DNA from: Scolanthus callimorphus
Lineage: Eukaryota > Cnidaria > Anthozoa > Actiniaria > Edwardsiidae
Reading direction: 5' to 3'
Length of the DNA stretch: 64,000 bases
Assembly (NCBI GenBank): GCA_033964015.1
Contig: CM066919.1
Span: 13,991,646 to 14,055,645, forward strand
The position numbers and the translations under genes were made by a program. Position 1 is the first letter of the stretch. The number at the start of each line of letters is the position of its first letter. Below, in pieces: positions 4,049 through 35,690 of this stretch. The notes under the pieces are model-generated. The model was not told the origin of the DNA. It made no database searches and was given only the letters and a program-made list of their open reading frames with translations.

Positions 4049-5374
4049 TAGCGGAACTCCCGTGCCGAAGGCACGGAGTGGAGCCCCATACGTATCATTC
4101 AACGTCACATGAGAAAGCAACCCATCCAAGACAAAACGATACGTTCAGCGGCTTACGAAAACATCGCGGGCTCTTATTTACGCATGCGCACTTGCGTTAG
4201 TGGCGACCCGTGTACACAGCCAATCACAGTCTGTCTTGGATCACTGGAGCGTGTGCGTCATTTTGTCCTCCAGCGCCGACAGCGCCGCGGGTAGAGGACA
4301 CGGACCGGAAGTCGCTCCTTCATTTTCCCGCCGAAAAAAACTCACAAAACACGCGCCCGCGTCGGCTCACTCGAGTTCATTCAGACGAAATTTTTGTTGA
4401 GTCAAACTGAGACAAACTCGTGGGTGCGAACCACGCCAAATTTGCTCAAACGAATTCTCTAATGATTGTCAAAATACTTCGGATTTGATTCCTTCGCCGA
4501 TATTTCATAATGTTGTTCAGTCAGGAGAAACTATGAGGGAGTTGCAAAAGATTCAAAGGCTAGATTGCAGAATACCCGGCCCACGGCGAAGCAAGGCTTC
4601 GTCTGAAGAAAAACAACAGTTTCTTTCGTAAAAGCTGCAAACGACGTGTTCTTCGAATACTCATATGAGATCTACAAAAGGGAGCCAGAACTGGATTGAA
4701 CAGGATTGACAATAACAGAAAATTTCAATGGTTTTAGCCGAATAATATATTTAGGAAAATTGGCTTTGTGCAAATAAAGCTAAGAATGAATTCAACTCAA
4801 CACGACGGAGACTTTCGAGGAAAGAAACGACTTCACTATCAGTTAACGGTAAGCACAAAGCTTGAAATTGCTTCTTATGCTATTTATATTTTTAGCTTCA
4901 AAGTTTATTGCATTCCTGATGAGAAAATTCTGACTTTACATGTAACTTTTACGTTTTGCTGCTTTGGTTGGCTCCCTCAAGGTTTCTTTTTCTCCGGCTA
5001 ATAGTTTTGAGTAAGCTTGACTTTTTTTGGCCTGCTTTGCCTTATGTAAACAGGTCATTTCTGATATTCTAGCCTTGATTTCCTTTGTCACATGTTAGAT
5101 TTAGTTAGTACAATGAGACAAATACTATGTCAGGTATTCTTGTTGTGGATTTCGCTGAAAATCTTATTTTTCATTTTTATTTCAAGGAGATTATCTTTTG
5201 TCGGTCGTGAACTGCGACTTGTTAGCATATCAGAACGCGCTAATACTATCATTGCGATATAATGGTAACATGAATTTTCTTGATTTAAACTGTAAAGTTG
5301 AGCTCCCTGTGAGTATAAACGTGGGGTGTGTATGATTGGAGTTCCGCTTTTAGGCATTGCCTAAATCTATATAT
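4049..5374 (-). mobile_element. Helitron-like element H1 (non-autonomous, divergent)
   Basis: Read on the minus strand it begins ATATATAGATTTAGG at 5374, with a hairpin (stem TTTAGGC/GCCTAAA, loop AAT), then AGCGGAACTCC. It ends at 4049 with a hairpin (stem CCGTGCC/GGCACGG, loop TTC), GGAGTTCCGCTA. Both ends match H3, H4 and H6 below but carry paired substitutions that keep the stems and the subterminal inverted repeat. The host junction is A|T without a target duplication. No replication initiator/helicase gene is present, so it would depend on another element. Unlike the other copies it lacks the CRE satellite; its interior instead resembles a copied gene start (next entry). Confidence 0.75.
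4181..4848 (+). promoter_or_regulatory. Possible captured promoter and first exon inside H1
   Basis: Within H1, antisense to it, lies a CpG-rich block with sites typical of housekeeping promoters. These are CGCATGCGCA (NRF1-like, 4181-4190), CCAATCACAG (CCAAT box, 4220-4229) and ACCGGAAGT (ETS-like, 4304-4312). About 470 bp downstream an ATG at 4786 opens 21 codons that end exactly at a consensus donor, ACG|GTAAGC, at 4848/4849. Helitrons are known to pick up gene 5' ends. Capture is my inference, and the source gene was not identified. Confidence 0.35.
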
Positions 5375-5725
5375 TAAGTATCTTTTAGGGTTATTCTGAA
5401 GCTCGTATGGGTGGTCACACCAATTCTGTTTTTTTAACAGGATTTTTTGTGCCTAGAGAATTTGAAATTTGATTTCCTCAATAAGCATCCCTGTCTGAAA
5501 AATAATAATTAATGGGACTAGTCCCCCCCTTGATTAAACTTTGACCTTGCTACTATGCCTATTTGGGATAACACGAAAAGATGGGAACACAGCCACTATT
5601 ATACAATAGTTTTTCGCATTCTGTGAAGTTTTTCAGGAAGAACAAAACAAAAGTCGAATTTAAAGGAACATCCTGAGTGTGTTCCTTGCATAAGAATGTG
5701 TTCTCATACTTTTTGTTTCATAATG
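5375..5725. other. Non-coding flank
   Basis: This lies between H1 and the last exon of the integrase gene. It is the likely 3' flank of that gene. I see no recognisable element. Confidence 0.4.
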
Positions 5726-10076: not shown

Positions 10077-11403
10077 ATGGCGGGGACGAAGGAAACTCTA
10101 GATTTGTGTCGGCTGGTTGCTCTCTAGAAGACTTCGTACAGCAACAAGAAAACAAGAACACTATAAGCAAGACACAGAGAGATGTCTCGTTGTTGAAAAC
10201 TTTTTAGTTTCGTGTAAAAACGAGCTGAGAGAGATAGAAAGTATAGATGTGAAAGAGCTCGACGTGTTGATCGCCAATTTTCTAGTTCAAGTCCGTAAAA
10301 AAGACGGAGAACAATACGAACCCACATCTCTCAGGTCTTTTGTTTCAAGCTTTGATCGTCATCTAAGAAAGAAGGACTACCCTTAAGCATTATGGAAGGA
10401 AAAGAGTTCCGAAAAACAAAAGAAGTGTTAGTCGCGAAGCAAAAAGAACTAAAGAAAGAAGGGAAAGGAAACAAACCAAATGCCGCACGTATGCTAGCAG
10501 ATGAGGAAGTTGACATTCTTTATGGCAAAAGTTTACTTGGCTGCTCTTCTCCTGAGGCTCTCATAAACACAATGTGGTTTGAACAATACGCAGTTCTTTG
10601 GACTGAGGGGCTGTCAAGAACACAGGGACATGAAATGGGGTGATGTTGAGAGAAAAACTGCAGCAGACGGGACAGTTTTTCTGGAGCATAACGAACGTCA
10701 GACTAAGACAAGAACCGGAGCAGATCCTAAAGATTCCCGTCCAGTAAAGGCTAAAATGTTTGCTGTCGAAGGTAGCGAAAGAGATCCCGTCAGGGCGTAT
10801 GACCTATATGCATCTAAAAGGCCAGATCAAATGAAGACTCCGGATAGCCCGTTTTATTTAGCAGTCAATCATACAACAAAAGCCGTAACTACAAAACCAT
10901 GGTTCAAGACAGCTCCGATGGGAGTAAATAAACTCAACTCACTCATGAAAACGATGGCAGAGAAAGCTGGTTTGGATGCTAGAAATCTTACTAATCATAG
11001 CGGGAGGAAAAGAATGATCCAAAAACTGAATGACCAAGGAGTACCTCCTACGCATATTATGCAAGTATCTGGCCACAAGAACGTACAAAGCCTCAACAAC
11101 TACAGCAATTTGTCCGAGCGACAACAGAGAAACATCTCACATATTCTGAGTGGTGACTACCCCGGAGCGCCTGGGTCATCAGGCTACCAAGTAGGTGTTT
11201 CCAATGCTTTGACTCTGAATGAAAGTAAAACAGTACAGGAGTCCACAACACAGCAGCCATTGACTCTTTTCCAAGGCGCCTTGATTCAGGGAGGAACTTT
11301 TAACATTTCTGTAAATGCCGTAAACCAAAGTCCAACTTTGTCATTGCATTCTCCAACTCCTAAAAAGACACGTCGCTTTGTCATAGAATCGGACAGTGAC
11401 TAG
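10077..11403 (+). pseudogene. Crypton-type tyrosine recombinase (DUF3504-like), frameshifted
   Basis: A likely start ATG at 10077 is followed by sequence resembling the catalytic domain shared by Crypton recombinases and the crypton-derived parts of ZMYM2/3/4, QRICH1 and KCTD1. It reads LEDFVQQQENKNTISKTQRD, then VKELDVLIANFLVQVRKKDG, KGNKPNAARMLADEEVDILY, the arginine box FFGLRGCQEHRDMKWGDV, then LTNHSGRKRMIQKL (H-x-x-R), IMQVSGHKNVQSLNNYSNLS (second His and the nucleophile Tyr). The R/H-R/H/Y set is complete. The frame changes near 10110, 10200, 10382 (one C apparently lost in TACCCTTAA) and 10580 (one base extra), so the product as read is broken; from 10579 to 11403 it is open for 274 codons. 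The Ser/Thr-rich tail ends RRFVIESDSD. Cryptons insert by site-specific recombination and have no TIRs, and none is seen here. Confidence 0.75.
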
Positions 11404-17891: not shown

Positions 17892-17929
17892 ACTTAATTA
17901 ATGACCGGTCCCTAAGGTTCATCCCTTCA

Positions 17930-19062
17930 ACGATGTAAACCTTTTCACGTTTGATGACGTCATCAATTACGTCATACCACGTAACCATGCAGTTACACCA
18001 ACCTGCCACTTAGATAACTTCACCCAAGTTTGGTTGTCTGAAGTTCATCCTTCTTGAGATATTTCATTTTTCTCCTATGATGACGTCATCGATGACGTCA
18101 TACCTCAAGATCATGCTGTTGCACCCCCCTTGCCACTTAGATAACTTCACCCAGTTTGGTTGTCTGAGGTTCATCCCTTCTTGAGATATATCATTTTTCT
18201 CCTATGATGACGTCATCAATGACGTCGTACCACGTGACCATGCAGTTGCACCCCCTTGCCACTTAGATAACTTCACCCAAGTTTGGTTGTCTCAGGTTCA
18301 TCCCTTCTGGAGATATATCACTTTTCTCCTATGATGACGTCATCGATGACGTCGTACCACGTGACCATGCAGTTGCACCCCCCTTGCCACTTAGATAACT
18401 TCACCCAAGTTTGGTTGTCTGAGGTTCATCCCTTCTGGAGATATATCACTTTTCTCCTATGATGACGTCATCGATGACGTCATACCACGTGACCATGCAG
18501 TTGCACCCTCCTTGCCCTTAGATAACTTCATCTAAGTTTCGTTGTCTGAGGTTCATCCCTTCTTGAGATATATCATTTTCTCCTATGATGACGTCATCAA
18601 TGACGTCATACCACGTGACCATGCAGTTGCACCCCTTGCCTCTTAGATAACTTCACCCAAGTTTGGTTGTCTGAGGTTCATCCCTTCCTGAGATATATCA
18701 CTTTTCTCCTATGATGACGTCATCAATGACGTCATACCACGTGACCATGCAGTTGCACCCTCCTTGCCACTTAGATAACTTCATCCAAGTTTGGTTGTCT
18801 GAGGTTCATCCCTTCTTGAGATATATCATTTTTCTCCTATGATGACGTCATCAATGACGTCATACCACGTGACCATGCAGTTGCACCCTCCTTGCCACTT
18901 AGATAACTTCATCCAAGTTTGGTTGTCTGAGGTTCATCCCTTCTTGAGATATATCATTTTTCTCCTATGATGACGTCATCAATGACGTCATACCACGTGA
19001 CCATGCAGTTGCACCCCCTTGCCACTTAGATAACTTCATCCAAGTTTGGTTGTCTAAGGTCC
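17930..19062 (+). repeat. Satellite array A: nine ~127-bp units with paired CRE and E-box
   Basis: The word TGATGACGTCA starts at about 17952, 18078, 18205, 18332, 18460, 18586, 18712, 18840 and 18968, a period of 126-128 bp. Each unit has two CRE sites around a dyad (TGACGTCATCGATGACGTCA or the CATCAATGACG variant), then TACCACGTGACCATGCAGTT, then TTAGATAACTTCACCCAAGT and GAGATATATCA. TGACGTCA is the CREB/ATF consensus and CACGTG the core bHLH E-box. Confidence 0.9.
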
Positions 19063-19175
19063 ATCCCTTCCCGAGATTTTTTAATTTTCTTAGTATACCA
19101 CAGGGTTCCCATGAGTTTCCGCGTACGGCGGACGGACGGACGGACGGACGCACGTACCCTAGAGCAGATTTCGTA

Positions 19176-20720
19176 ATATATAGATTTAGCCACTGGCTAA
19201 AAGCGGAGCTCCCGGTTACACATTTTTATAAAAGGTGCGTTTACCTATCTTATTGGGCCGTTGCTAGGGAAAATTATAAGTCCTGCAAAAGATTAATAAT
19301 GTGACGTGTCGCGACATCACTTGCTACAGAAAACAATCTTGTTCTCCCAAGTTTACCCAAGTTTGGTCACCTAGCGATGTTGCCTTCCTGAGATATTCAC
19401 TTTTCTAGTTTTGATGACGTCATGTCACGTGACCTTGATTGTGCACCCCCTTGCCTTCAAAATAACTTTACCCAAGTTTGGTCACCTAGCGATGTTACCT
19501 TCTTGAGATATTGACATTTCTAGTTTTGGTGACGTCATCGATGACGTCATGTCACGTGACCTTGGAAGTGAACTCCCCTTGCCTCCATAATAACTTTGCC
19601 CAAGTTTGGTCACCTAGCGATGTTGCCTTCTTGAGATATTGACTTTTCTAGTTTCGATGACGTCGTCGATGACGTCACGTCACGTGACCTTGGTGGTGCA
19701 CCTCCCTTACCTCCAAAATAACTTTACACAAGTTTGGTCACCTAGCAACGTTGCATTCTCGAGATATAGACTTTTCTAGTTTTGATGACGTCATCGATGA
19801 CGTCATGTCACGTGACCTTGGAGGTGCACTCCCCTTGCCTCCAAAATAACTTTACCCAAGTTTGGTCACCTAGTGATGTTGCCTTCTTGAGATATTGGCT
19901 TTTCTAGTTTTGATAACGTCAACGATGACGTCATGTCACGTGACCTTGGAAGTGAACTCCCCTTGCCTCCAAAATAACTTTGCCCAAGTTTGGTCACCTA
20001 GCGATGTTGCCTTCTTGAGATATTGACTTTTCTAGTTTCGATGACGTCATCGATGACGTCATCGATGACGTCATGTCACGTGACCTTGGTGGTGCACCCC
20101 CTTACCTCCAAAATAACTTTACCCAAGTTTGGTCACCTAGTGATATTGCCTTCTTGAGATATTATTTTTTCTAGTTTTGATGACGTCATCGATGACGTCA
20201 TGTCACGTGACCTTGGTAGTGCACCCCCTTGCCTCCAGAATAACTTTACCCAAGTTTGGTCACCTATCGATGTTGCCTTCTTGAGATATTGACTTTTCTA
20301 GTTTTGATGACGTCATCGATGACGTCATGTCACGTGACCTTGGTAGTGCACCCCCCTTGCCTCCAGAATAACTTTACCCAAGTTTGGTCACCTATCGATG
20401 TTGCCTTCTTGAGATATTGACTTTTCTAGTTTTGATGACGTCATCGATGACGTCATGTCACGTGACCTTGGTAGTGCACCCCCTTGCCTCCAGAATAACT
20501 TTACCCAAGTTTGGTTACCTAGCGATGTTGCCTTCTTGAGATATTGATTTTTCTAGTTTCGATGACGTCATTTCGGACGAACGAACGAACGAACGCACAA
20601 ACCGGAAGTCCATGACAGAATCGTTGGATGCATATACACTTTTTTGTGTTCCTTTTTCTCCTGCATGTAGCTATGGGGCTCCGCTCGCGGGCGCCTTCGG
20701 CGCCCGCGGGAGCTCCGCTA
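19176..20720 (+). mobile_element. Helitron-like element H3
   Basis: It starts ATATATAGATTTAGCC with a hairpin (stem TTTAGCC/GGCTAAA, loop ACT) and the subterminal repeat AGCGGAGCTCCCGG. About ten satellite units (array B, 19380-20565) follow, then a (GAAC)n microsatellite at about 20576-20594. It ends with a 3' hairpin (stem GCGGGCGCC/GGCGCCCGC, loop TTC) and GGAGCTCCGCTA at 20720. The next base begins H4. There are no TIRs and no target duplication, and no Rep/helicase gene. Boundaries are fixed to within one base by the split MITE. Confidence 0.85.
19380..20565 (+). repeat. Satellite array B in H3: ten ~127-bp units
   Basis: TGATGACGTCA-type cores recur at about 19412, 19529, 19658, 19782, 19910, 20040, 20178, 20306, 20434 and 20560. 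Most units read TGACGTCATCGATGACGTCA, GTCACGTGACCTTGG, then TAACTTTACCCAAGTTTGGT and GAGATATTGACTTTTCTAG. Only the CRE dyad, CACGTGACC, CCCAAGTTTGGT and GAGATAT words are shared with array A. One unit near 20040 has three CRE sites in a row. Confidence 0.9.
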
Positions 20721-21741
20721 ATATATAGATTTAGCCACTGGCTAAAAGCGGAGCTCCCGGTTACAATTTTTTTTAACGAGACAAAAAGGTTGCCATTGTA
20801 CATGAATAGATAGCCTTGCACCGTTATACCACGTGACTAAGCACTTGTTCACCCAAGTGTGGTTATCTAAGGTTCATCCCTTCAACGATGCAAACCTTTC
20901 ACGTTTGATGACGTCATCAATTACGTCATACCACGTAACCATGCAGTTACACCCACCTTGCCACTTAGATAACTTCACCCAAGTTTGGTTGTCTGAAGTT
21001 CTTCCTTCTTGAGATATTTCATTTTTCTCCTATGATGACGTCATCGATGACGTCATACCACGTGACCATGCAGTTGCACCCCCTTGCCACTTAGATAACT
21101 TCACCCAAGTTTGGTTGTCTGAGGTTCATCCCTTCTTGAGATATATCATTTTTCTCCTATGATGACGTCATCAATGACGTAATACCACGTGACCAAGCAG
21201 TTGCACCCCCTTGCCACTTAGATAACCACAAATTTTGGTTGTCTGTGGTTCATCCCTTCTTGAGATATATCATTTTTCTCCTATGATGACGTCATCGATG
21301 ACGTCATACCACGTGACCATGCAGTTGCACCCCCCTTGCCACTTAGATAACTTCACCCAAGTTTGGTTGTCTAAGGTCCATCCCTTCCGAGATTTTTTAA
21401 TTTTCTTAGTATACCACAGGGTTCCCATGAGTTTCCGCGTACGGCGGACGGACGGACGGACGGACGGACGTACGCTATACCTTTTATTCAGGAAGAAACA
21501 AAAAAATTCATATCTCAAGAGGAGAACCACCTATGGCAACCAAACTTGGACACATTCATCTATTCGGCGATACCTTTTTAACGCCCTAGTCATTTGACTT
21601 GGCGCCGTCAATAAAGTGAGCAGAATGAGCGAGAAAGCCCATGACGTTTGAAAATCAACTCCATACCTATGCCTGGACGTTATTTCCTTAGGTATGGTGC
21701 TCCGCTTGCGCGGGCCTTCGGCCCGCGCAGGAGCTCCGCTA
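20721..21741 (+). mobile_element. Helitron-like element H4 (complete, head-to-tail with H3)
   Basis: It starts ATATATAGATTTAGCC immediately after the end of H3 and carries the same 5' hairpin and subterminal repeat. It contains four A-type satellite units (cores at about 20906, 21033, 21160, 21286) and a (GGAC)n microsatellite (about 21445-21468). A ~250-bp 3' region with CATTTGACTTGGCGCCGTCA follows. It ends with a hairpin (stem GCGCGGGCC/GGCCCGCGC, loop TTC) and GAGCTCCGCTA at 21741. At 1.02 kb this is the shortest complete copy and shows the whole architecture. Confidence 0.88.
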
Positions 21742-22149
21742 TGACTGTGAAAAGTACCGTGACACGGCGCGGTACTGTCGCGGTGGCGGTACGGAACCTG
21801 GCCTGCTGTAGATACCGAACGAAACCGCGTAGTGGCGGTACGGTCGCGGTCGCGGCGCGGTACAACTCTTTCGCGGTACTTTTCACAGTCATACGAAATC
21901 TGCTCTATACCTTTAATACCAGGAAGAAATAAAAAAAATCAAACTTGGACACATTAATCTTTTGGGCGATGCCATTCCAACGCCCTAATCATTTGACTTG
22001 GCGCCGTCAATAACGTAAGCAAAATGAGCAAGAAAGCCCGTGACGTTTGAAAATCAACTCCATAGTTATGCGAGACGTTATTTCCTTAGGTATGATGCTC
22101 CGCTTGCGCGGGCCTTCGGCCCGCGCAGCAGCTCCGCTATAACCTCAAG

Positions 22150-22731: not shown

Positions 22732-22857
22732 GTATGCTGTATTGCACTATGGTCACCTAAACCGATATGGAAGTGGCGGAGAGCCAGAAATGATAAAAGT
22801 AGAGGAGCCAGGATTAGAAGTTCATTTCAATGTTTGGCATTCTGAAGCAGTCTCAGA

Positions 22858-25800
22858 AAGTGTAATTCCTGCTCCAAAGCATCTCGGGGTATTCACTTCC
22901 TTAACATCCGATAACTCCGTCTTCCACTGAGACCATTGTTTCTCAAGGTCCTCTTCTAGTGGATCATTCCATTGAAGCCCTCTTCGCCATAATTCTTGGA
23001 GGAGAATCTTTGCCCTGATTGTGAAGGGTGTGATAAGTCCTAAGGGATCGAATACTTTCGACGCTAAACTCAAAACAGTTCTCTTAGTCAACTCTTCCTC
23101 GGAGGCGATGATACCTTTTGGTTCGACGAAGCAGAAAGTGTCACTTGCTGGGTCCCATGATACTCCTAGCGCTTTCAATGTGCTGCTCGACTCGAATTCT
23201 CTTAGTGTCGCCGATCTCTTCTCTGGTTCCGTGTTACTCATCACAAGCTCTGAATTGCTTGCCCACTTCGTGAGGTTAAATGCTGCCGTGCTCATGACTT
23301 CCGTCAGTTCCTGTTGCAGTTTACAAGCAGACTCCGCATCTTCAGCACCGGTCAAACAGTCATCCACATACATGTTAGTCAGGATTACGGTTGCTGCTCT
23401 GGGAAATCTCGAAATAAACTTTTAGCATGAGCATGAACTACAGCGATAGCAAGAAACGGACTAGAGTTTACACCGAATGTCAATCTCTGCATTCTATAAA
23501 TCTTCGGTGGCTCTTCTGCTTTAAAATCTCTCCACAGGTAACGATGAACATCACGATCTCCTTTTGCAAGCTTGACTTGCAAAAACATCTTCTCAACGTC
23601 GGCCATTATTCCAACTCTGTGGGTGCGAAAACGTATGAGTACTGATGCTAGATTCGGTTGTAGAGCGGGACCTTGTAGTACACAATCGTTAAGGGACGCA
23701 CCATTTTTTCCCTTTTCGGACGCGTTAAAAACGACTCTACACTTTGTTGTACCTGTATCTTTGAACACTGCATGATGGGATAGATATCTACACTTGCCGT
23801 CTTCTGTTGGCTTTGCGGTGTCTACCAGCTCTGCATACCCTTTCTCGACGTACTGGCTTATTGCCTCTTGCCTGCTTTCGCTGGATCACGGCTTATCCTT
23901 CTCTCGATACCTTCTAGACGTTTCACTGCTTGATGATAGTTGTTTTCCAGTTTGGGGTGCTGCTCTTTCCATGGCAACGGTACTTCATAGTTATGACCAT
24001 CAAATTTCAGTTCTCGATTAAATGTCTCAACTGCCAGCTCTTCGCTCCTAGACATGACCGGTTCTTCTTTCTCCTTGATTCCAATCGATTCTAGCTCCCA
24101 GAAACTTCTCAGACACTCAAGAATCTCTCCATTGTCACTGATAGTTAGCATGGCTGTTGTGTGCTGTGATGAACCTGCCATTGGGCCAGTCAGTATCCAA
24201 CCGAGATGTGACTCCACTGCAACGAAGGGCTCTTCGCCTAGACAAGTAACCGATCCTGTAACAAATTTATAGTAATAATCCGTGCCGATAAGAATGTCAA
24301 CATGCACAGAATCTCTAGGATAGTTATCCGCCAAGTCTAATCCGCGTAAAATTGGATCCTGCATATTCAGTTTCACGGGTGCCAATGGATTACAAATCTT
24401 TGGTATAGCTAGTGCTTCCATCTCTATGACCTTATTACCCTCCCCTCTCAAAGAAGACAGGGAAAACTGAACCCTTTGTAACTTCTTCGACTCACTTGTT
24501 TGCCCTCCCAATGTAGTTACACTCAATGTTTCTGTGGGACCCGTCATACCCATGGATTCTACAATGTTCTTTCTTATGTATGACCGCTGACTACCACTGT
24601 CCAGTAAACAACGCACAACAACATCTCCTCCCCACCGACAGACATTTTTGCTACGGCTGTCTGTAAAAGGGTGTCCCTTACAGTCTTACTGGCTGCCAAA
24701 CCACTCATGGTGTGACTGGCAGGGTAACTGGGGGCCTGGGTACTAGTGGTAGGAACCTGGGGTGTGTATACTGGCATGGGTGCAGGTGCTTGGTGTGCTG
24801 GGTAACCTCCCTGGATCATGGGTGTAGGTACTTGTGATATAAGTGCAGGCACTCGGGGAATGGGTGTGGTCACTTGGGGTATGGGCGCAGGCGCACGGGG
24901 TGTAGGTGTAGGAGGTGGGGTTAAAGGGGAACCCTTTTGTGGAATACCATGTAATAGCTTGTGGTGCTTTCTGCCACAACCCACCACCCAACATTTGGGT
25001 TGTCTACAAATTTTTGAGAAGTGCTTGTGAGATGTTGGTCTCAAACAATTGAAGCATAATTTATTCTCTTGTACCAAATTCCAACGCTCATTTCCTGATT
25101 TTGAATGAAGCATGGGACAATCTGACACTTCATGATTTGCCTTACAAATTCCACAGACCGCTTGCTGTGTCTCACCGAGCAATGCAGTAGCTGTTGAAAC
25201 TTTCTCGTGACCCAACCCTTTTTTGTCCTGTTTCCCTTTGTTTACATTCTGACTTGGGTTAGAATTTCTTTCCCTTGCCTCTTTAGCAGCTACTTGTTGG
25301 TTTAGAAACTTGAAAAATTAATCGAGATCAATGCTCTCTTCAGAAATGTCTACAAGTTCCAATTCCCACTTTTCGAGCAGGTCTGAAGGCAGCTTTGTCT
25401 CAAATATGGGCAGTAGAATACAACTGTGGTTCACGGGATTCTCACCAAGTGCCTCCAATGAACGGGTTTTATTTTTCAAGACATCATGCAAATCTCTAAG
25501 GGACTTTGCATCTGAATTAGCTTTACCCAAGTTAGTCATAGTTTTCACTAGTGATGACACAACTACACGCCTTTTCCCATATCTGTTCTTTAAACATTCT
25601 ATCGCTGGCTGGTAATTGGCTCCTGTAACCTCAAAACCCTCTATTGATTTCAAGGCACTACCTTTTAGCAGGGAACGCAGGTAAATAAACTTCTGGACTG
25701 GGGGTACCTTGGTATTCGAATGGACTGATGCATCAAACTGATCCCAGAAAGTTGGAAACTCAGAACATCCCTTGATTATATCCCCATCAAAAGTTGGTAA

Positions 25801-26316
25801 TTCAAGTTTGGGTAGCTTGAGATTACTGTTAGACATAAACACTTTACCCGATTCTACTTCAACATTATGGTTGCTTTTGCTCTCAGATGAATAATAATCT
25901 CGACCAAGATCTATTGTGAGATCAATATCTTCCATAATTTGACCCCATTTTGCTATTTCAGATGTAACCATATCTTCTCCTATTTGATTGACTTTTTTGT
26001 CTCTCAAATCTTGACAGGCCTTTCTTAACTCACTTAATCTTTCTACTCGAGCTTCGAGCTTCACTTTATTGTCACTGCTTTGAGTGAGCATGTGCACAGT
26101 TGCAATCAAAGATTGAATATCACTCTTTAATGTTAGTTCTTGTCGCTCCAAAAGCAACGCTTCGTTTTTCTCTGATTGTTTTCGGGCCTGATCTGACTTC
26201 ACTAACCTTTTAATCAAGACCTCTTTCTTACCAGTGTTCATTAGCCCTCTGTCCTGCAATTCCTCTTTTAAATCTTCAAGTGAGAGCTCGTCGTAATCGG
26301 ACAACATGGCCGCCAT
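22858..26316 (-). mobile_element. BEL/Pao-type retrotransposon, decayed, 3'-truncated
   Basis: On the minus strand the order is gag, zinc knuckles, protease and RT. The gag (26316-25318) has an N-terminal SAP-like motif (LSLEDLKEELQDRGLMNTGK, residues ~12-45) and a DUF1759-like core (LKLPKLELPTFDGDIIKGCS; VQKFIYLRSLLKGSALKSIE). A single in-frame TAA at 25318 separates it from CGICKANHEVSDCPML and CFNCLRPTSHKHFSKICRQP. The DUF1758-type aspartic protease has RCLLDSGSQRSYI. The RT has MADVEKMFLQVKLAKGDRDV and MYVDDCLTGAEDAES, with frameshifts near 24630, 23860 and 23380. The sequence stops in the connection region (VNTPRCFGAG) near 22858; RNase H, integrase and LTRs are absent or unrecognised. 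It is inactive. Confidence 0.85.
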
Positions 26317-26842: not shown

Positions 26843-28338
26843 TAGCGGAGCTCCTGCGCGGGCCGAAGGCCCGCGCAAGCGGAGCACCATACCTAAGGGA
26901 AAAACGTATAGTATACTATCGAGTTGATTTTTGAACGTCACGGGCATTATGGATCATTTTGATGACGTCATTGATGACGTAAGGGCACGTGACTTTTGTG
27001 TAGAGTTCCTCTTATGGTCTTTGAAACTTTGTCCAAGTTTGGCTTCTATAGAAGCTTCCCTTCGGGAGATATGATTTTTTCTTTATTTTTCTGGTATTAA
27101 ACCTATAGCGTACGCCGTCCGTCCGTCCGTCGTCCGTCCGTCCGTCCGTGTACACATGGGAACCCTGTGGTATGCAAAGAAAAAATTATATCTCCTCAAG
27201 GGAACATGCTAAGACAACCATACTTGGAATATTTTGTCTATGCCACAAGGGGGGTGCTGTAACACGGACACGTGATGTGACGTCATCGATGACGTCATCT
27301 ATGCTTGAAAAATCAATATCTCGTGAAGGCGAAGACTCTAAGACAACAAAACTTGGGTAGTGTAGTCTAGGCCACCAGATGAGCAAAATGAGGTGGTCAC
27401 GTGATATGACGTCATCGATGGCGTCATTTATGCTTGAAAAATCAATATCTTGTGAAGGGAAGACTCTAAAGCAACCAAACTTTGGTAATGTAATCCAGGT
27501 CACCAGATGAGCGAAATGAAGTGGTCACGTGATATGACGTTATCGATGACGTCATCTACTCTGGAAAAATCGATATTTCATGAAAGGAAGACTCTAAACC
27601 AACCAAACTTGGGTAATGTAATCCAGTTCACCAGATGAGCGAAATGAAGTGGTCACGTGATGTGACGTCATCGATGACGTCATCTATGCTTGAAAAATCA
27701 ATATCTCGTGAAGGGAAGACTCTAAGACAACAAAACTTGGGTAGTGTAGTCTAGGCCACCAGATGAGCAAAATGAGGTGGTCACGTGATATGACGTCATC
27801 GATGACGTCATTTATGCTTGAAAAATCAATATCTTGTGAAGGGAAGACTCTAAAGCAACCAAACTTGGGTAATGTAATCCAGGTCAACAGATGAGCGAAA
27901 TGAAGTGGTCACGTGATATGACGTCATCGATGACGTCATCTACTCTTGAAAAATCAATATCTCATGAAAGGAAGACTCTAAACCAACCAAACTTGGGTAA
28001 TGTAATCCAGTTCACCAGATGAGCGAAATGAAGTGGTCACGTTATGTGACGTCATCGATGACGTCATCTATGCTTGAAAAATTAATATCTCGTGAAGGGA
28101 ATACTCTAAAAGAACCAAATTTTGGTAGTGTAGTCTAGGTCATTAGATGAGCGAAAGGAAGTGGTCACGTAATATGACGTCATCGATGATGTCATTTATG
28201 CTTGAAAAATTAATATCTCGTGAAGGGAAGACTCTAAAGTAACCATGTAAACCATGTACACATGGGAATCCCTTTCATTCACACAGAAAATTTTATAACC
28301 AAGAGCTCCGCTTTTAGCCAGTGGCTAAATCTATATAT
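26843..28338 (-). mobile_element. Helitron-like element H6 (complete, minus orientation)
   Basis: Read on the minus strand it starts ATATATAGATTTAGCC at 28338 with the 5' hairpin and AGCGGAGCTC. It carries eight satellite units in reverse and a (GGAC)n-type microsatellite (about 27115-27150, GTCC on the plus strand). It ends at 26843 with a hairpin (stem GCGCGGGCC/GGCCCGCGC) and GGAGCTCCGCTA. Host junctions are A|T on both sides without duplication. A single extra CRE dyad lies near 26965, between the microsatellite and the 3' hairpin. Confidence 0.85.
27250..28240 (-). repeat. Satellite array C in H6: eight ~128-bp units
   Basis: CRE dyads sit at about 27279, 27410, 27536, 27665, 27796, 27919, 28049 and 28176. 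On the plus strand a unit reads GTGGTCACGTGATATGACGT, CATCGATGACGTCAT, then TATGCTTGAAAAATCAATAT and AAACTTGGGTAATGTA. The dyad, the CACGTGA word and GATATTGA/TCAATATC are shared with arrays A and B, while the rest has diverged. Confidence 0.88.
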
Positions 28339-29759
28339 TAGAGCGATGATAGATGTCCACAAATATCAAATAACTTTTGTGGCAAGCTATTTTTGTAATC
28401 AGCAGCAGGCGATAGAATTACCTTACGTGGTGAACCTCACGGCATCTCACTGTTGACTTGACAAGCGTGAAGGGAAAATCTTGCAAAAATCCCTGCTGAA
28501 ACGAGAATAAGAGTCTAACACATATCCTCAGACAGTAATCGAGGTTTTTCGCTTGAGTTTGAATCTGCAGAGATGTAATCAAAGCTCTCGAGTTTCAAAA
28601 TTGTTGTTTACATCCCGAAACACTAGAGCCATGTGTTAACTTGACCTCGCTAAACAAACACAAAAATCCACTTTTCGTTGGTAAACGAGCTCTATTTTCC
28701 GTTAAGCAAAGATAAATACCTCCGGAATATCCAAGAACATACCTTGCAAGCCATATTAGATAAGATTCAGGCCATTTTAGTGGAGAACACGAGAATCTCT
28801 TCTCCGAACCCGTCAGTTCGGTAAGCATTGCGTGACGCTGGTCACGTGGAAAACAACCAAGTGAGCACAGGTAGCCCGTAAAATGGAATACGGCGTTCGA
28901 CGGCATAAGAACGGGATATACGATTTTGTCTATTATTAACTCCTTCAAATACTAATAAATAATAAATTCCCTCTTGAGCAACGAATGCTTCGCATATTCA
29001 TTTTACCTGTAAATAAAAACCTTGCGCAAGTAAAATAGGATTAGAACCTGGGGGGGGGGGGGGGGGGGGGGGACGGCCTACCTTTTTTGACGGCCCGGGT
29101 ATGGCGGGGGGCGGGGGGATTTTTTTTAGCACGCAAACCTTTTTTTTTCAGTTTTCTGTTTGCCCGTGCAAAAAATAAATTTGTTGTCTGTAAACAATGT
29201 ATTTTCTGAATACAATTATTTTAATACGCCATAACTTCTGCAAAACTTAATTTTTCAAATTCTCAACACTTCTCCCCCCGTCAAAACCAATAATGGTCCG
29301 TCTCTAACTAGTAGTCACTCGCGAAGTTGTGCCATTTCTGACACTCAATATATCTCAAAGAGAACAGCGCATTGTTCTCTAAGAATTGCGGAAACGGTAT
29401 TTTCGACATGACCCTTTTGCAGTTATTCCGTGACGCGGGTCGCGTGAAAAACAGACCGAAGTGAACACAGGCAGCCCGCAAACTGAGATACGAATTTGCT
29501 TAGTTCTTTATTTTTAACTATAATAATTCATAAACATCAGTAATCAGATCTTGATATTTCCATTCTCACTTTGGAGATAGTGTGAAAGACCAGAAGCAGA
29601 ATTTGGGTTCTGGACTTGGTTTGGTAATGTTGGTTAAAAATAATTTACGCGCTTATAATGTTTTGCCTGGTGATCGTCTTGGGCGCATGAGTGTTAACTC
29701 AAATTAAACAGAGAACAAGTAAGCGTGCGTACTTAAGCAAAAACAAAATAGTCCTAAAG
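28339..29759. other. Unassigned sequence with a duplicated block and a G homopolymer
   Basis: A 23-base G run is at 29050-29072, followed by GACGGCCCGGGTATGGCGGG. The block CGTGACGCTGGTCACGTGGA to GCACAGGTAGCCCGTAAA (28830-28882) recurs diverged at 29430-29490, so an element copy may span both. No gene was recognised. Confidence 0.45.
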
Positions 29760-32403: not shown

Positions 32404-33479
32404 CTTGAAATCGGTTTTGATGTATTGCCGTCCTTGTTTTAGCTGAAACTCACAATAGTCAGCCCAGTCATTTGTCCGACAGCCGCTGTTTTCCACCTTC
32501 GTGACAACCTCTGCTAAGTCATCAAATGCCTTGGCTCCTTCGGCGGCAATATAATCGAAGCCCTGTAGGGACTTTCGAACCGAGGCGGAGCAAACCGATA
32601 GGATTCGCGTCATGGTAGATGGAATGAATGGTCGGAAACCCGTCTCCTCACAGAAGGCTTGGTACTGATGGCAGATTCGTCTGGGGACCATGGTGCGAAT
32701 CACGTTCGGTGTTTCAAGAACTTTTCCGCCGGTGAGCGTCAGGTACTTCTGACCAAAAGGCAAATCCTGTACGATGTGAGGGCTTGTTATGAAACATAGG
32801 AAGTGGTCCAGCTGTTTCTCGTCAACCCGGAATCTGCAGTTCTTGTTAATGGGAACCGCCACCCCGCGCCCATGCTTCATGATGTGTAGTCTGGCGATCT
32901 TGAATCGGTATTCTGTCAGTTTGGGGATGTACTGTCGCAGCTCCTTCAGGGAGACCAGGTCGGCCATGATAGCCAGTACTTGGCGTCTTGTATCCCAGCT
33001 GCTGGCGTTCATGTACGTCTCGGCCAGGGCGGCTAGGTACCTGTGATTGGCCGGCGATACTACACCAAGTGCCTCATCCACTGCGTGGGAGTCCTGTACG
33101 GCCTGCCACAGACTGCCAGCATCATTGGGGTTGATGACCTTTAGCGACTCCACTATCACGGCACTTGCTCTGGACACGTGTATCTGTCTGGCCTTGTTTC
33201 CGATGTCGTCCCACCTCTTGTTTGGTGCGCCGACAACACGTTCTGGACTCCGACACGCTTGCATGAATTCGTTGAGCTTTTCACGCCGCACTTCCAAGCC
33301 AGAAACGTCAGAGCCAGAGGAGTCTGTACTTATGGGGCTTACCGTGCCCGCAGTCTCGTTAAGCGCAAAACTGCGATCGTCAGCTATTGTGAGCTTGGCC
33401 ATGCTCTCAGCGATGACGGCCTCCTCTTCTAATCTACGGCGCTCTGAAGTCAACTTTTCTCGGCAACGCCTACAAATGG
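32404..33479 (-). CDS. Transposase-derived gene, large central exon
   Basis: A 1,076-bp exon lies between TCTCATTGACAG (acceptor, 33480) and AAG|GTGAGT (donor, 32404) and is open throughout (~358 codons). It begins PICRRCREKLTSERRRLEEE, continues SRASAVIVESLKVINPNDAG, LPFGQKYLTLTGGKVLETPN, VIRTMVPRRICHQYQAFCEE and FIPSTMTRILSVCSASVRKS, and ends QGRQYIKTDFK. The CRRC pair may bind zinc with cysteines of the preceding exon. The conserved IPSTMTRIL-like helix suggests a DNA-binding or helical domain, but I do not know a function. Splice phase into 31619-32155 is 0. This is the best-preserved long reading frame in the window. Confidence 0.65.
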
Positions 33480-33995
33480 CTGTCAATGAGAAAAGAAAAG
33501 ATATGGGCATGTGTCTTTCGGCCGATGTAAATACAAAATTGAATATCGAAATAGGTGCAATGGTGCAAAACAAAGAGCTTCCATAAACTCCCTTACTTAT
33601 ATCTACTCCCCTCTCGAAAATTTACCGTCTGCCCTCCACTACCCTTGATTTACGCAAAAAACCTTTGTCAAAAAAGTATGCTAACTCCTTACTCACAACC
33701 ATACTTCTTCTATCTGCCTTGTACCCAGGCGCGTTCTATTGATATTCGAGCCGAGAGCGACTGGGAACGAACTAGCGGAAAAGGCCTCATGGGGCGAAGA
33801 AAATAACGCACTGGAAAGCGCTGTCTCTTTCGCTCGTTTGAGCCTTCCCTTGATCCTTTGCGTCAACGAACAGTTCCAAAGCTTCATTGCGCACACGCTA
33901 CCAGACTTGTACACTCGCTAGGTTTCGCGCTGTGGCGACCTCTCTCTGGGTTGTGTTATAAATAAATCGCCGTATACATGTGATCATAGACTTAC

Positions 33996-34500
33996 GAAAT
34001 CCGATCTGTACGACTTCGCCGGTGACTTGGTGCAATTCTAAAGCTTGGGTGAAAGTTACAAAGCGATCACCCTTGACCGCGGTTTTGCCATGCGGGGCCC
34101 ACTCAATTGGGACGAAACAGTTAGATTTGCCAGTTCTCCACTTCACCCCAAAGTCATCTCTATGCTTCTTGCAAATTGTAAGCAAGAGGAGTTCAGTGGA
34201 ACTATCAAACAGTCCTAAAAAGTAACAGAAAAAAACGTCTTATCCGTGCTTATTTGACTTCCGATACTTAGATAGACAATGTAAAGTAACGCCGCTCTTC
34301 TATTGACTTCTATTGCGAGATTTCACGCCACGTGTGCTCTAGCGATTTCAACTTATCGTAAAACGGGACGTAAAGCAATTCGTGATTTAGAATTTCAATA
34401 ATGATAGAATAATTAGTACCTGCTCTAGCCAGAAGAAGAGAGAATTCGTCTTCTATTATCCCGTCGTTAGCCTTGATCGATTGAACTTGAGAAGTCACCG
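33996..34500 (-). CDS. Transposase-derived gene, N-terminal exons
   Basis: Exon 34214-33996 follows GTTACTTTTTAG and ends at TTTC|GTAAGT. It encodes LFDSSTELLLLTICKKHRDD, FGVKWRTGKSNCFVPIEWAP and FTQALELHQVTGEVVQIGF. The preceding exon, ending at GCAG|GTACTA (34420), reads TSQVQSIKANDGIIEDEFSL, LLARA. Both junctions are phase 1 and join correctly, the second to PICRRC at 33479. The C-x2-H and single C residues could form a zinc site. The initiator Met was not found; the frame stays open to about 34500. The promoter should lie upstream, towards 34.6-35.0 kb. Confidence 0.55.
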
Positions 34501-34599
34501 TTTTCTTGCACTCCCAAGAACGAGCTCAACGCCGGCGCATTTCCCTTTACATATGCGGAATAACCACAAGAGGTCATGTCGAAAATACAGCTTTCAATT

Positions 34600-35262
34600 G
34601 CGGGTGTTCTCCTTGTTTCTGAGAGCGCGGTGGATCGAAAGTCCAAGATCTTGTGAAGGTGTTTGTTCCTGACCAGTTGAAAGCGTTCTATAGCTTGTGT
34701 TCACTTTTAGAGGAAGCTTGCGCAATTCTTAGAGAACAATACTCTTTCCTTTTAGGTAAGGAATTTAGATGCTGCGAGCGCTAAAGTGATAATTGAGTGT
34801 GAGAAATGCCACACCTTTGCGCGTGATTTGGTCGGCGTTACTTTGTCAAGTTTTGCTTGCGCAAGGTTCACTTCTACAGGTAAAATGAATATGCGTATGC
34901 AGCATCCCCCCGACCACCCACCCCTCCCCCTCACTACCACACCGCCATGCTGTGACGTCATGAGCGCGCGCCACCACCCCTCCCCCCGTCACTGGCTCGC
35001 CGCCATGTTGTGACGTCATGACCACACGACTGCGAAGGAGACTAGATGCATCAAAGCGGCTGCGAAAGGTGCAGGCTTCACCGTCCGGCGCGGGAAATTA
35101 CCTTGGATGACCTTCGACGTTCAAAAATCACTTCGATCCCTTTGCGCGATATTGCCGCATGTGAGGTTTTGGGTACCCTGTGGATTTCTTACATTCGCAC
35201 TATTTGCGATCATTGGACTCGTACCGTACCATTTGGATTTGTTTTTTGACGCTTTTTTCTTA
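34600..35262. promoter_or_regulatory. Candidate bidirectional promoter region with two CRE sites
   Basis: Between the minus-strand gene and the H7 fragment lies a CpG- and C-rich block with a ~60-bp tandem duplication. Each copy reads CCACCCCTCCCCC, then CCGCCATGCTGTGACGTCAT or CCGCCATGTTGTGACGTCAT (CRE near 34951 and 35013). On the plus strand an open stretch NLDAASAKVIIECEKCHTFA at about 34756-34880, between TCCTTTTAG and ACAG|GTAAAA, could be an exon. Both calls are tentative. Confidence 0.35.
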
Positions 35263-35310
35263 GGTATGGCGCTCCGCTCTGCGGCCTTCGGCCGCAAAGG
35301 AGCTCCGCTA
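35263..35310 (+). mobile_element. 3' end of a Helitron-like element (H7)
   Basis: GGTATGGCGCTCCGCT, a hairpin (stem TGCGGCC/GGCCGCA, loop TTC) and GGAGCTCCGCTA match the 3' ends of H1-H6, with a third version of the stem. The 5' end was not found. It directly abuts the inverted satellite arm starting at about 35311. Confidence 0.7.
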
Positions 35311-35690
35311 AAAACGAGTTTTTATTTGTTTTGAACCGAAACATAGTGATTTATACTAAATCAAGCATTCTGAATCTGACAATGTATCTTTTAAAGTCAG
35401 CTCTTTAATTCTCGGTCATCAAACGTGACGTCATCTGCCATATAAGGTAAAAACATTATTTTATTGAGTTTATACAGGCTTCAAGTGAAACATAGTTTAG
35501 TGATTTAAACTATATGCTATAAATTCGAGTACTTGGATGTCGAAAACCAAAGTTGCTAACACCAATCTGATGACGTCATTCACCAAAAAAGGTCAAATCA
35601 CTCTTTTATCGTTGTTCTACTTGAAAGTTTTGTTGTTTAAACGTAGACATTCTCGGTCATCAGTGGTGACATATTTGGGTTCCTAAGACG
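35311..35690 (-). repeat. CRE-bearing satellite, left inverted arm (two units)
   Basis: Units contain ACCGAAACATAGTGATTTAT, CTAAATCAAGCATTCTGAAT, TCTCGGTCATCAAACGTGAC and GTCATCTGCCATATAAGGTA. They are inverted relative to the array at 37290-37960; for example TTTGAACCGAAAC, ACTAAATCAAGCAT and CTCGGTCATCA occur in both in opposite orientation. TGACGTCAT sites lie at about 35426 and 35572. Confidence 0.7.

Follow-up and report, generated by a model that had tools for sequence, protein, structure and literature searches.

Helitron2 transposons, as described in the sections of Bao and Jurka (2013, PMC3627910) on which we draw, carry an asymmetric terminal inverted repeat (ATIR) that lies 0-2 bp from the 5′ end and takes part in a hairpin, a 3′ ATIR 20-30 bp from the 3′ end, directly before a second hairpin, no TC or CTRR ends, and a Rep-helicase (RepHel); compensatory changes between their ends are reported in the same sections. 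The portions used here of a study on FoHeli1 and FoHeli2 of Fusarium and their Chaetomium relatives (PMC5148889) give a TNAT|A insertion site (the bar marks the junction) for two Helitron2-like groups, with the same T|A ambiguity that we meet below, one figure legend giving T in place of A at this site. The corresponding portions of an oyster study of the non-autonomous element Cg_HINE (PMC7492417) state that its authors could not tie it to autonomous elements. Here we describe a nested stack of three related elements, H2, H3 and H4, and a miniature inverted-repeat transposable element (MITE) in a 64,000-nucleotide stretch of the cnidarian Scolanthus callimorphus (GCA_033964015.1, contig CM066919.1, positions 13,991,646 to 14,055,645 of the forward strand; hereafter the window, numbered from its first letter), which belongs to an assembly of 597 Mb in 302 contigs. 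We conclude with high confidence that H2, H3 and H4 belong to a rolling-circle family of the Helitron2 type as its non-autonomous, HINE-like members, and that the Rep-helicase of full-length relatives such as the one at C1:4565676-4582811 is their likely driver.

The stack is a real and well-preserved nesting of transposable elements, composed as follows, with the MITE pieces given for the T|A reading of the insertion and TIR denoting its terminal inverted repeat:

17912..19159, minus strand: left part of H2, HINE-like, without a 3′ end, with a 128-bp array of ~8.9 units
19160..19174, no strand assigned: left piece of the MITE, i.e. the TA at 19160-19161 and the first 13 bp of the TIR
19175..20719, minus strand: H3, a 1,545-bp non-autonomous Helitron2-type element
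19175..19212, minus strand: 3′ end of H3, with the ATIR GGAGCTCCGCT at 19202-19212, the hairpin TTTAGCCAGTGGCTAAA and the terminal TCTATATATT
19413..20571, minus strand: tandem repeats of H3, 128-bp unit, ~9 copies, with TGACGTCA and CACGTG motifs
20675..20719, minus strand: 5′ end of H3, with the ATIR AGCGGAGCTCC at 20709-20719, partly paired in a predicted 5′ hairpin (z -4.1)
20720..21740, minus strand: H4, non-autonomous, 1,021 bp long and from a different subfamily than H3, onto whose 5′ end it is seamlessly joined by its 3′ end
20720..20757, minus strand: 3′ end of H4, with the ATIR at 20747-20757, a hairpin and the terminal TCTATATATT, closing with a target-like TATT|A
20848..21387, minus strand: tandem repeats of H4, 127-bp unit, 4.3 copies
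21441..21474, minus strand: (GTCC)n microsatellite of H4, between its 5′ end and its array
21696..21740, minus strand: 5′ end of H4, with the ATIR at 21730-21740, partly paired in a predicted 5′ hairpin (z -5.0)
21741..21907, no strand assigned: right piece of the MITE, ending with the TA at 21906-21907; the 32-bp TIR is restored on removal of the insert
21908..22138, minus strand: right part of H2 including its 5′ end (AGCGGAGCTGC..., ATIR with one change)

Excision of the 2,566 bp occupied by H3 and H4 (19175-21740 or, equivalently, 19176-21741) yields a MITE whose 178-bp body has TIRs matching perfectly over 32 bp, compared to just 14 matching bases while the insert is present; the cut position is uncertain by 2 bp, since both the flank and the end of the insert have TA. 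The MITE is flanked by TA on both sides and sits inside H2, which comparison with H4 across this position shows to be continuous, H4 having one TA there. An earlier sequence-only reading of the window had proposed the continuity of H2 with H4 outside the MITE, the restored TIRs, the junction of H3 and H4 without a spacer and the order of events (H2, then the MITE, then H3/H4), all of which our analysis confirms. Of the four nested levels it counted, the MITE within H2 and the insert within the MITE stand, and we only infer that H3 and H4 make up two separate levels. The search for empty MITE sites that it had suggested was also successful: a 34-nt stretch of intact MITE arm that crosses the insertion point has 3,189+3,219 = 6,408 matches genome-wide (≤3 mismatches, two arms per MITE; control 0), and the empty site, TCAT|A, is therefore real. 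We have set aside misassembly, to which we give hardly any credence: the region is repetitive, but the MITE junctions are exact and the same type of seamless junction occurs 112 times on many contigs.

The biological orientation of H2, H3 and H4 is the minus strand with the 5′ end on the right, the reverse of the direction assumed in the earlier reading. From 5′ to 3′ the layout consists of the AGCGGAGCTCC start, a hairpin that uses part of AGCGGAGCTCC, a microsatellite, 127-128-bp tandem repeats, GGAGCTCCGCT, the hairpin TTTAGCCAGTGGCTAAA and TCTATATATT. The tetranucleotide GTCC microsatellite is present in H4 and H2, and H3 has only a short GTTC-like run, as judged by eye. DNA folding predicts hairpins in all six end sequences (z -2.1 to -5.0), with scores of -2.4 to -5.0 for the four 5′ ends and more modest ones of -2.1 and -2.2 for the two 3′ ends. 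The 5′ ATIR AGCGGAGCTCC is terminal and the 3′ ATIR GGAGCTCCGCT is followed by 27 nt to the element end. These are the ends of a Helitron2, namely an 8-15-bp 5′ ATIR 0-2 bp from the end, a 3′ ATIR ~20-30 bp from the end, a predicted 5′ hairpin that involves the 5′ ATIR and a predicted 3′ hairpin just after the 3′ ATIR. H4 in addition shows the full Helentron/HINE layout of 5′ subterminal inverted repeat (subTIR), microsatellite, tandem repeats, 3′ subTIR and palindrome.

Three further copies or parts of copies lie elsewhere in the window:

26844..28339, plus strand: H5, a complete single copy flanked by GTAAT and A
4050..5375, plus strand: H0, a divergent copy with both ends present
35265..35309, minus strand: the 5′ end of a related element

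H5 shares the 127-128-bp tandem repeats of H2, H3 and H4 and carries one change in its 3′ repeat. H0, for which the repeat-finder output contains no 128-bp array, starts with AGCGGAACTCC instead of AGCGGAGCTCC, and its changes are matched both within the ATIR pair (AGCGGAACTCC / GGAGTTCCGCT) and between the two arms of the 3′ hairpin (TTTAGGC/GCCTAAA). No 3′ end at ≤6 mismatches was found for the element at 35265..35309 within 33001-35330. In the genome as a whole, the 29-nt 3′ end has 10,350 copies at ≤3 mismatches, compared to 0 for the control.

To define the insertion site we tabulated flanks in 81 sources: the window and 80 loci that had been selected for an exact 3′ end or a MITE arm, most of them within the first 4 Mb of C1. 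Of the 59 unique 3′ ends, 57 have T directly after CTATATAT, and in all 59 A comes next; each of the 25 unique 5′ ends has T at both -1 and -4. Genome-wide, 1,746 junctions share one exact 31-nt 5′ core, a different one from that of H3; TNNT precedes 1,731 of them, the exceptions being 6 junctions with a non-T at -4 (VNNT) and 9 with a non-T at -1. Position -2 of the target may also be T, G or C. The insertion site is thus TNNT|A. The A|T rule of the sequence-only reading does not hold as an invariant, as its right-hand T varies among copies; what stays constant is the TNNT that precedes the 5′ end and, in the sampled copies, the A that follows the 3′ end. Insertion without target duplication, which it also proposed, agrees with our data in that no duplication is required, yet at the single verified empty site, that of the MITE, a bare T|A insertion and a TA duplication look identical in sequence.

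This ambiguity is what a cut-and-paste, mariner-like element that duplicates TA could appeal to, as TA is found on both sides and the junctions can be written as a 2-bp TA duplication. Against it speak the lack of TIRs at both exact ends, the strictness with which T occupies position -4 before the 5′ end, the hairpins, the near-identical seamless tandems and the RepHel-coding element with matching ends described below. We consider it most improbable and have set it aside. The same applies to a canonical Helitron1 with unusual ends inserting at A|T, the view taken by the earlier reading, which we rate as very unlikely. It would account for the RepHel and for the lack of need for a duplication, and an A|T reading of the MITE site is possible; but the elements have neither a 5′ TC nor a 3′ CTRR, they do have a terminal 5′ ATIR and a 5′ hairpin, the base after the right end assigned in that reading is variable, and the rule is TNNT|A. 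Their assignment to rolling-circle, Helitron-type elements was correct, and the ends that had appeared to be aberrant canonical Helitron ends are ordinary Helitron2-type ends.

A search for the Helitron_like_N family (150 of 327 candidates scored, 150 matches listed) included one match on C1 that is followed, 8.2 kb downstream, by the 3′ end of H3/H4, and for a second, equally scoring match on C5 the 3′ end was predicted beforehand at the same offset and found there. The C5 and C1 3′ regions are identical across 301 aligned nt with one 1-nt gap and diverge right past the end. No 5′ end was found on C1 within 8 kb upstream of Rep; it lies in the next 3.5 kb, at 4582811, after TTGT. This defines the following element:

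G000:C1:4565676-4582811: full-length relative, 17,136 bp long; its 1,645-aa frame is open from stop to stop

Its first 130 bp align with the 5′ end of H3 at 88.6% identity (132 columns), and its 3′ end matches that of H3 at 96.2% (52 columns). The corresponding values are 83.0% (53 columns) and 96.2% (52 columns) for H4, and 83.0% (53 columns) and 86.3% (80 columns) for H5. The 1,645-aa frame contains DUF6570, Helitron_like_N and PIF1 domains, and none of the 8 proteins aligned departs from the HWH (HUH) or YxxxY residues, so that HUH, two tyrosines and a PIF1 helicase occur on an element with matching ends. The YxxxY spacing equals that of tyrosines Y727 and Y731 of Helraiser. A Pfam scan of two pieces covering the frame detected no endonuclease family, although separate exons could carry one, and a search of solved structures with the RepHel matched in the PIF1 helicase part only. 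The closest relatives of the RepHel are 83-78% identical; the nearest from named species are those of the stony corals Oculina patagonica (76-77%) and Porites (72-73%), over parts, followed by bivalves and Nematostella. With its matching ends and this frame, the 17.1-kb RepHel element is likely to drive H3/H4.

Forty-six sites in the genome match a 40-nt subterminal pattern derived from the C1 copy. Four of these hits share the strand of a PF14214 match among the 150 listed and lie no more than 13 kb downstream of it, where 0.08 would be expected; the C1 source and the C5 test copy account for two of the four. Several points weigh against our reading. The 13-kb limit was fixed after the hits were seen, and the other 42 of the 46 hits lie away from any listed Rep match (177 of the 327 candidates being unscored). 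The RepHel gene model covers the 1,645-aa frame and not the first exons, and the comparison of the H3/H4 ends covers the C1-type relative. At the insertion site, the T before A is missing at 2 of the 59 sampled 3′ ends, 163 exact 3′ ends genome-wide are followed by a base other than A (an absolute count, without denominator), and the 5′ base preference in the consulted sections on Helitron2 is T, compared to the ambiguous (T)A here (PMC3627910). The MITE is the sole insertion with a verified empty site, as the joined flanks of 19 paired copies yielded none among the sampled loci and the window. Finally, among 20 additional 3′ ends taken together with ~4 kb on the side of the element, 8 had a recognisable 5′ end, and many copies are therefore truncated, divergent or longer. 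Three spanning matches that did arise from the 19 paired copies were rejected as empty sites; we read them as a tandem pair matching its own parts and a related 5′ end in locus L015.

H3 and H4 belong to different subfamilies and are not copies of each other: identity in aligned columns is 82.6% for the first 150 nt (46 gap positions) and 90.4% for the last 150 nt (49 gap positions), and their repeat arrays are ~72-75% identical. As the two are clearly unlike, we read the pair as probably the product of two successive insertions, the second at a target rebuilt by the first. Alternatively, H3 and H4 may have been inserted jointly as one rolling-circle product, be it a composite or a read-through unit. 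Seamless junctions do occur genome-wide in excess, 53+59 = 112 at ≤2 mismatches on many contigs, about ten times or more the chance expectation of 4.5 (TNNTA sites) or 11 (TWWTA sites) calculated from the site density of the window alone. Like also tends to join like: 77 of 100 listed junctions could be typed, using one letter per side as the subfamily mark, giving counts of 59/7/2/9 (Fisher p 3e-6, uncorrected for local duplicates), with 23 junctions carrying other mismatches dropped, some of which would be unlike pairs. In two triple arrays chosen for their closely spaced junction pairs (L088, L089), the 150-nt ends of neighbours agree at 100%/100% and 98.7%/100% identity (≤1 gap), compared to medians of 86% (3′) and 89% (5′) and 90th percentiles of 94.5% and 97.3% for random pairs of sampled ends. 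Joint insertion of H3 and H4 is nevertheless unlikely, if plausible, given their dissimilarity and the read-through beyond the intact 3′ end of H4 that a composite would need; moreover, the 5′ hairpins of the neighbours at the C1:12447672 junction differ by one letter, so not every tandem consists of identical copies. We read the arrays of like with like as probable rolling-circle concatemers or later duplications of them. Head-to-tail copies as a by-product of rolling-circle replication, as the earlier reading had suggested, thus gain no evidence from the H3/H4 pair, and two other tandems do look like concatemers. A cluster at C1:403-408 kb (L005-L008) was rejected as a concatemer: the same short flank follows three of its four 3′ ends, indicating duplication of element plus flank.

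A mechanism can be proposed. The HUH/two-tyrosine Rep would nick TNNT|A at the 5′ end (flank TNNT, then AGCGG), a displaced strand or circle would be produced, a second nick would fall at TATT|A, past the 3′ hairpin, and joining to a TNNT|A target would then integrate the element without any net duplication. A different element could then insert seamlessly beside an intact copy, because the TATT|A end of that copy is again a target, and H3/H4 likely arose in this way; identical tandem copies could result when a circle is used for several rounds. More tentatively, and with somewhat less than even confidence, we propose that TNNT|A may be one nick signal, shared by the 5′ junction, the element's own TATT|A end and the target and rebuilt with each insertion, so that arrays would grow by concatemer formation and self-targeting and spread satellite-like blocks rich in TGACGTCA.

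Within the 128-bp arrays TGACGTCA, a cyclic AMP response element (CRE)-like motif, is abundant, with 52 of its 63 copies in the window falling inside H2-H5 (17912-22139, 26844-28339), as do 27 of the 38 window copies of CACGTG; the arrays of H2-H5 could possibly spread such transcription-factor-like sites. In the C1 element, upstream of the Rep frame (C1:4576100-4580500; L082, L084), there are repeated stretches of ~120-540 bp, not reported as a tandem array and without a blastn match to H0 or H2-H5. Other, higher-scoring Helitron_like_N groups among the matches listed have open frames of ~2,050-2,270 aa, which suggests more than one Rep lineage in the genome. The window also contains an open reading frame at 10579-11403 (plus strand) matching DUF3504 and Phage_integrase, which we take to be Crypton-like, and pieces of a BEL/Pao-like retrotransposon (Peptidase_A17, DUF1759) at 22822-26316 (minus strand).

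By the structural features tested, then, the family is Helitron2-type with HINE-like passengers, a new member of an already known kind. The family shares with Helitron2 (PMC3627910) the design of the ends and the RepHel, and the matched changes of H0 resemble the published compensation; it differs in that a Chlamydomonas member inserts after TTTT and before T/C whereas insertion here follows TNNT|A, and in the satellite-like arrays of its copies. FoHeli1 and FoHeli2 (PMC5148889) have Helitron2-like ends, a TNAT|A-type site and reported tandems and joined ends, as here, but are fungal with other end sequences, whereas here position -2 is also T, G or C and 3′-end copies number in the thousands; given the Fusarium site, the TNNT|A rule is not new in kind. 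With the HINE elements known from Drosophila and oyster, HINE/DINE-1 (PMC4067079) and Cg_HINE (PMC7492417), the elements share a 5′ subTIR and hairpin, a GTCC-like microsatellite, a tandem-repeat core, a 3′ subTIR and palindrome, the absence of a detected duplication and, for DINE-1, high copy number. Those elements, however, use TT or T-rich sites, in contrast to the strict T|A after TNNT here, which is not an insertion within TT, and the Helentron RepHel has a C-terminal endonuclease, none of which was detected in the C1 frame. Unlike Cg_HINE, for which the oyster study left such a link unresolved, a satellite-carrying HINE-like element is here tied to a full-length RepHel element by both ends. 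Among the 1,746 junctions counted in this animal family, the TNAT|A-type rule described for fungal elements has almost no exceptions, and the question of the nick site becomes directly testable with short oligonucleotides and purified Rep.

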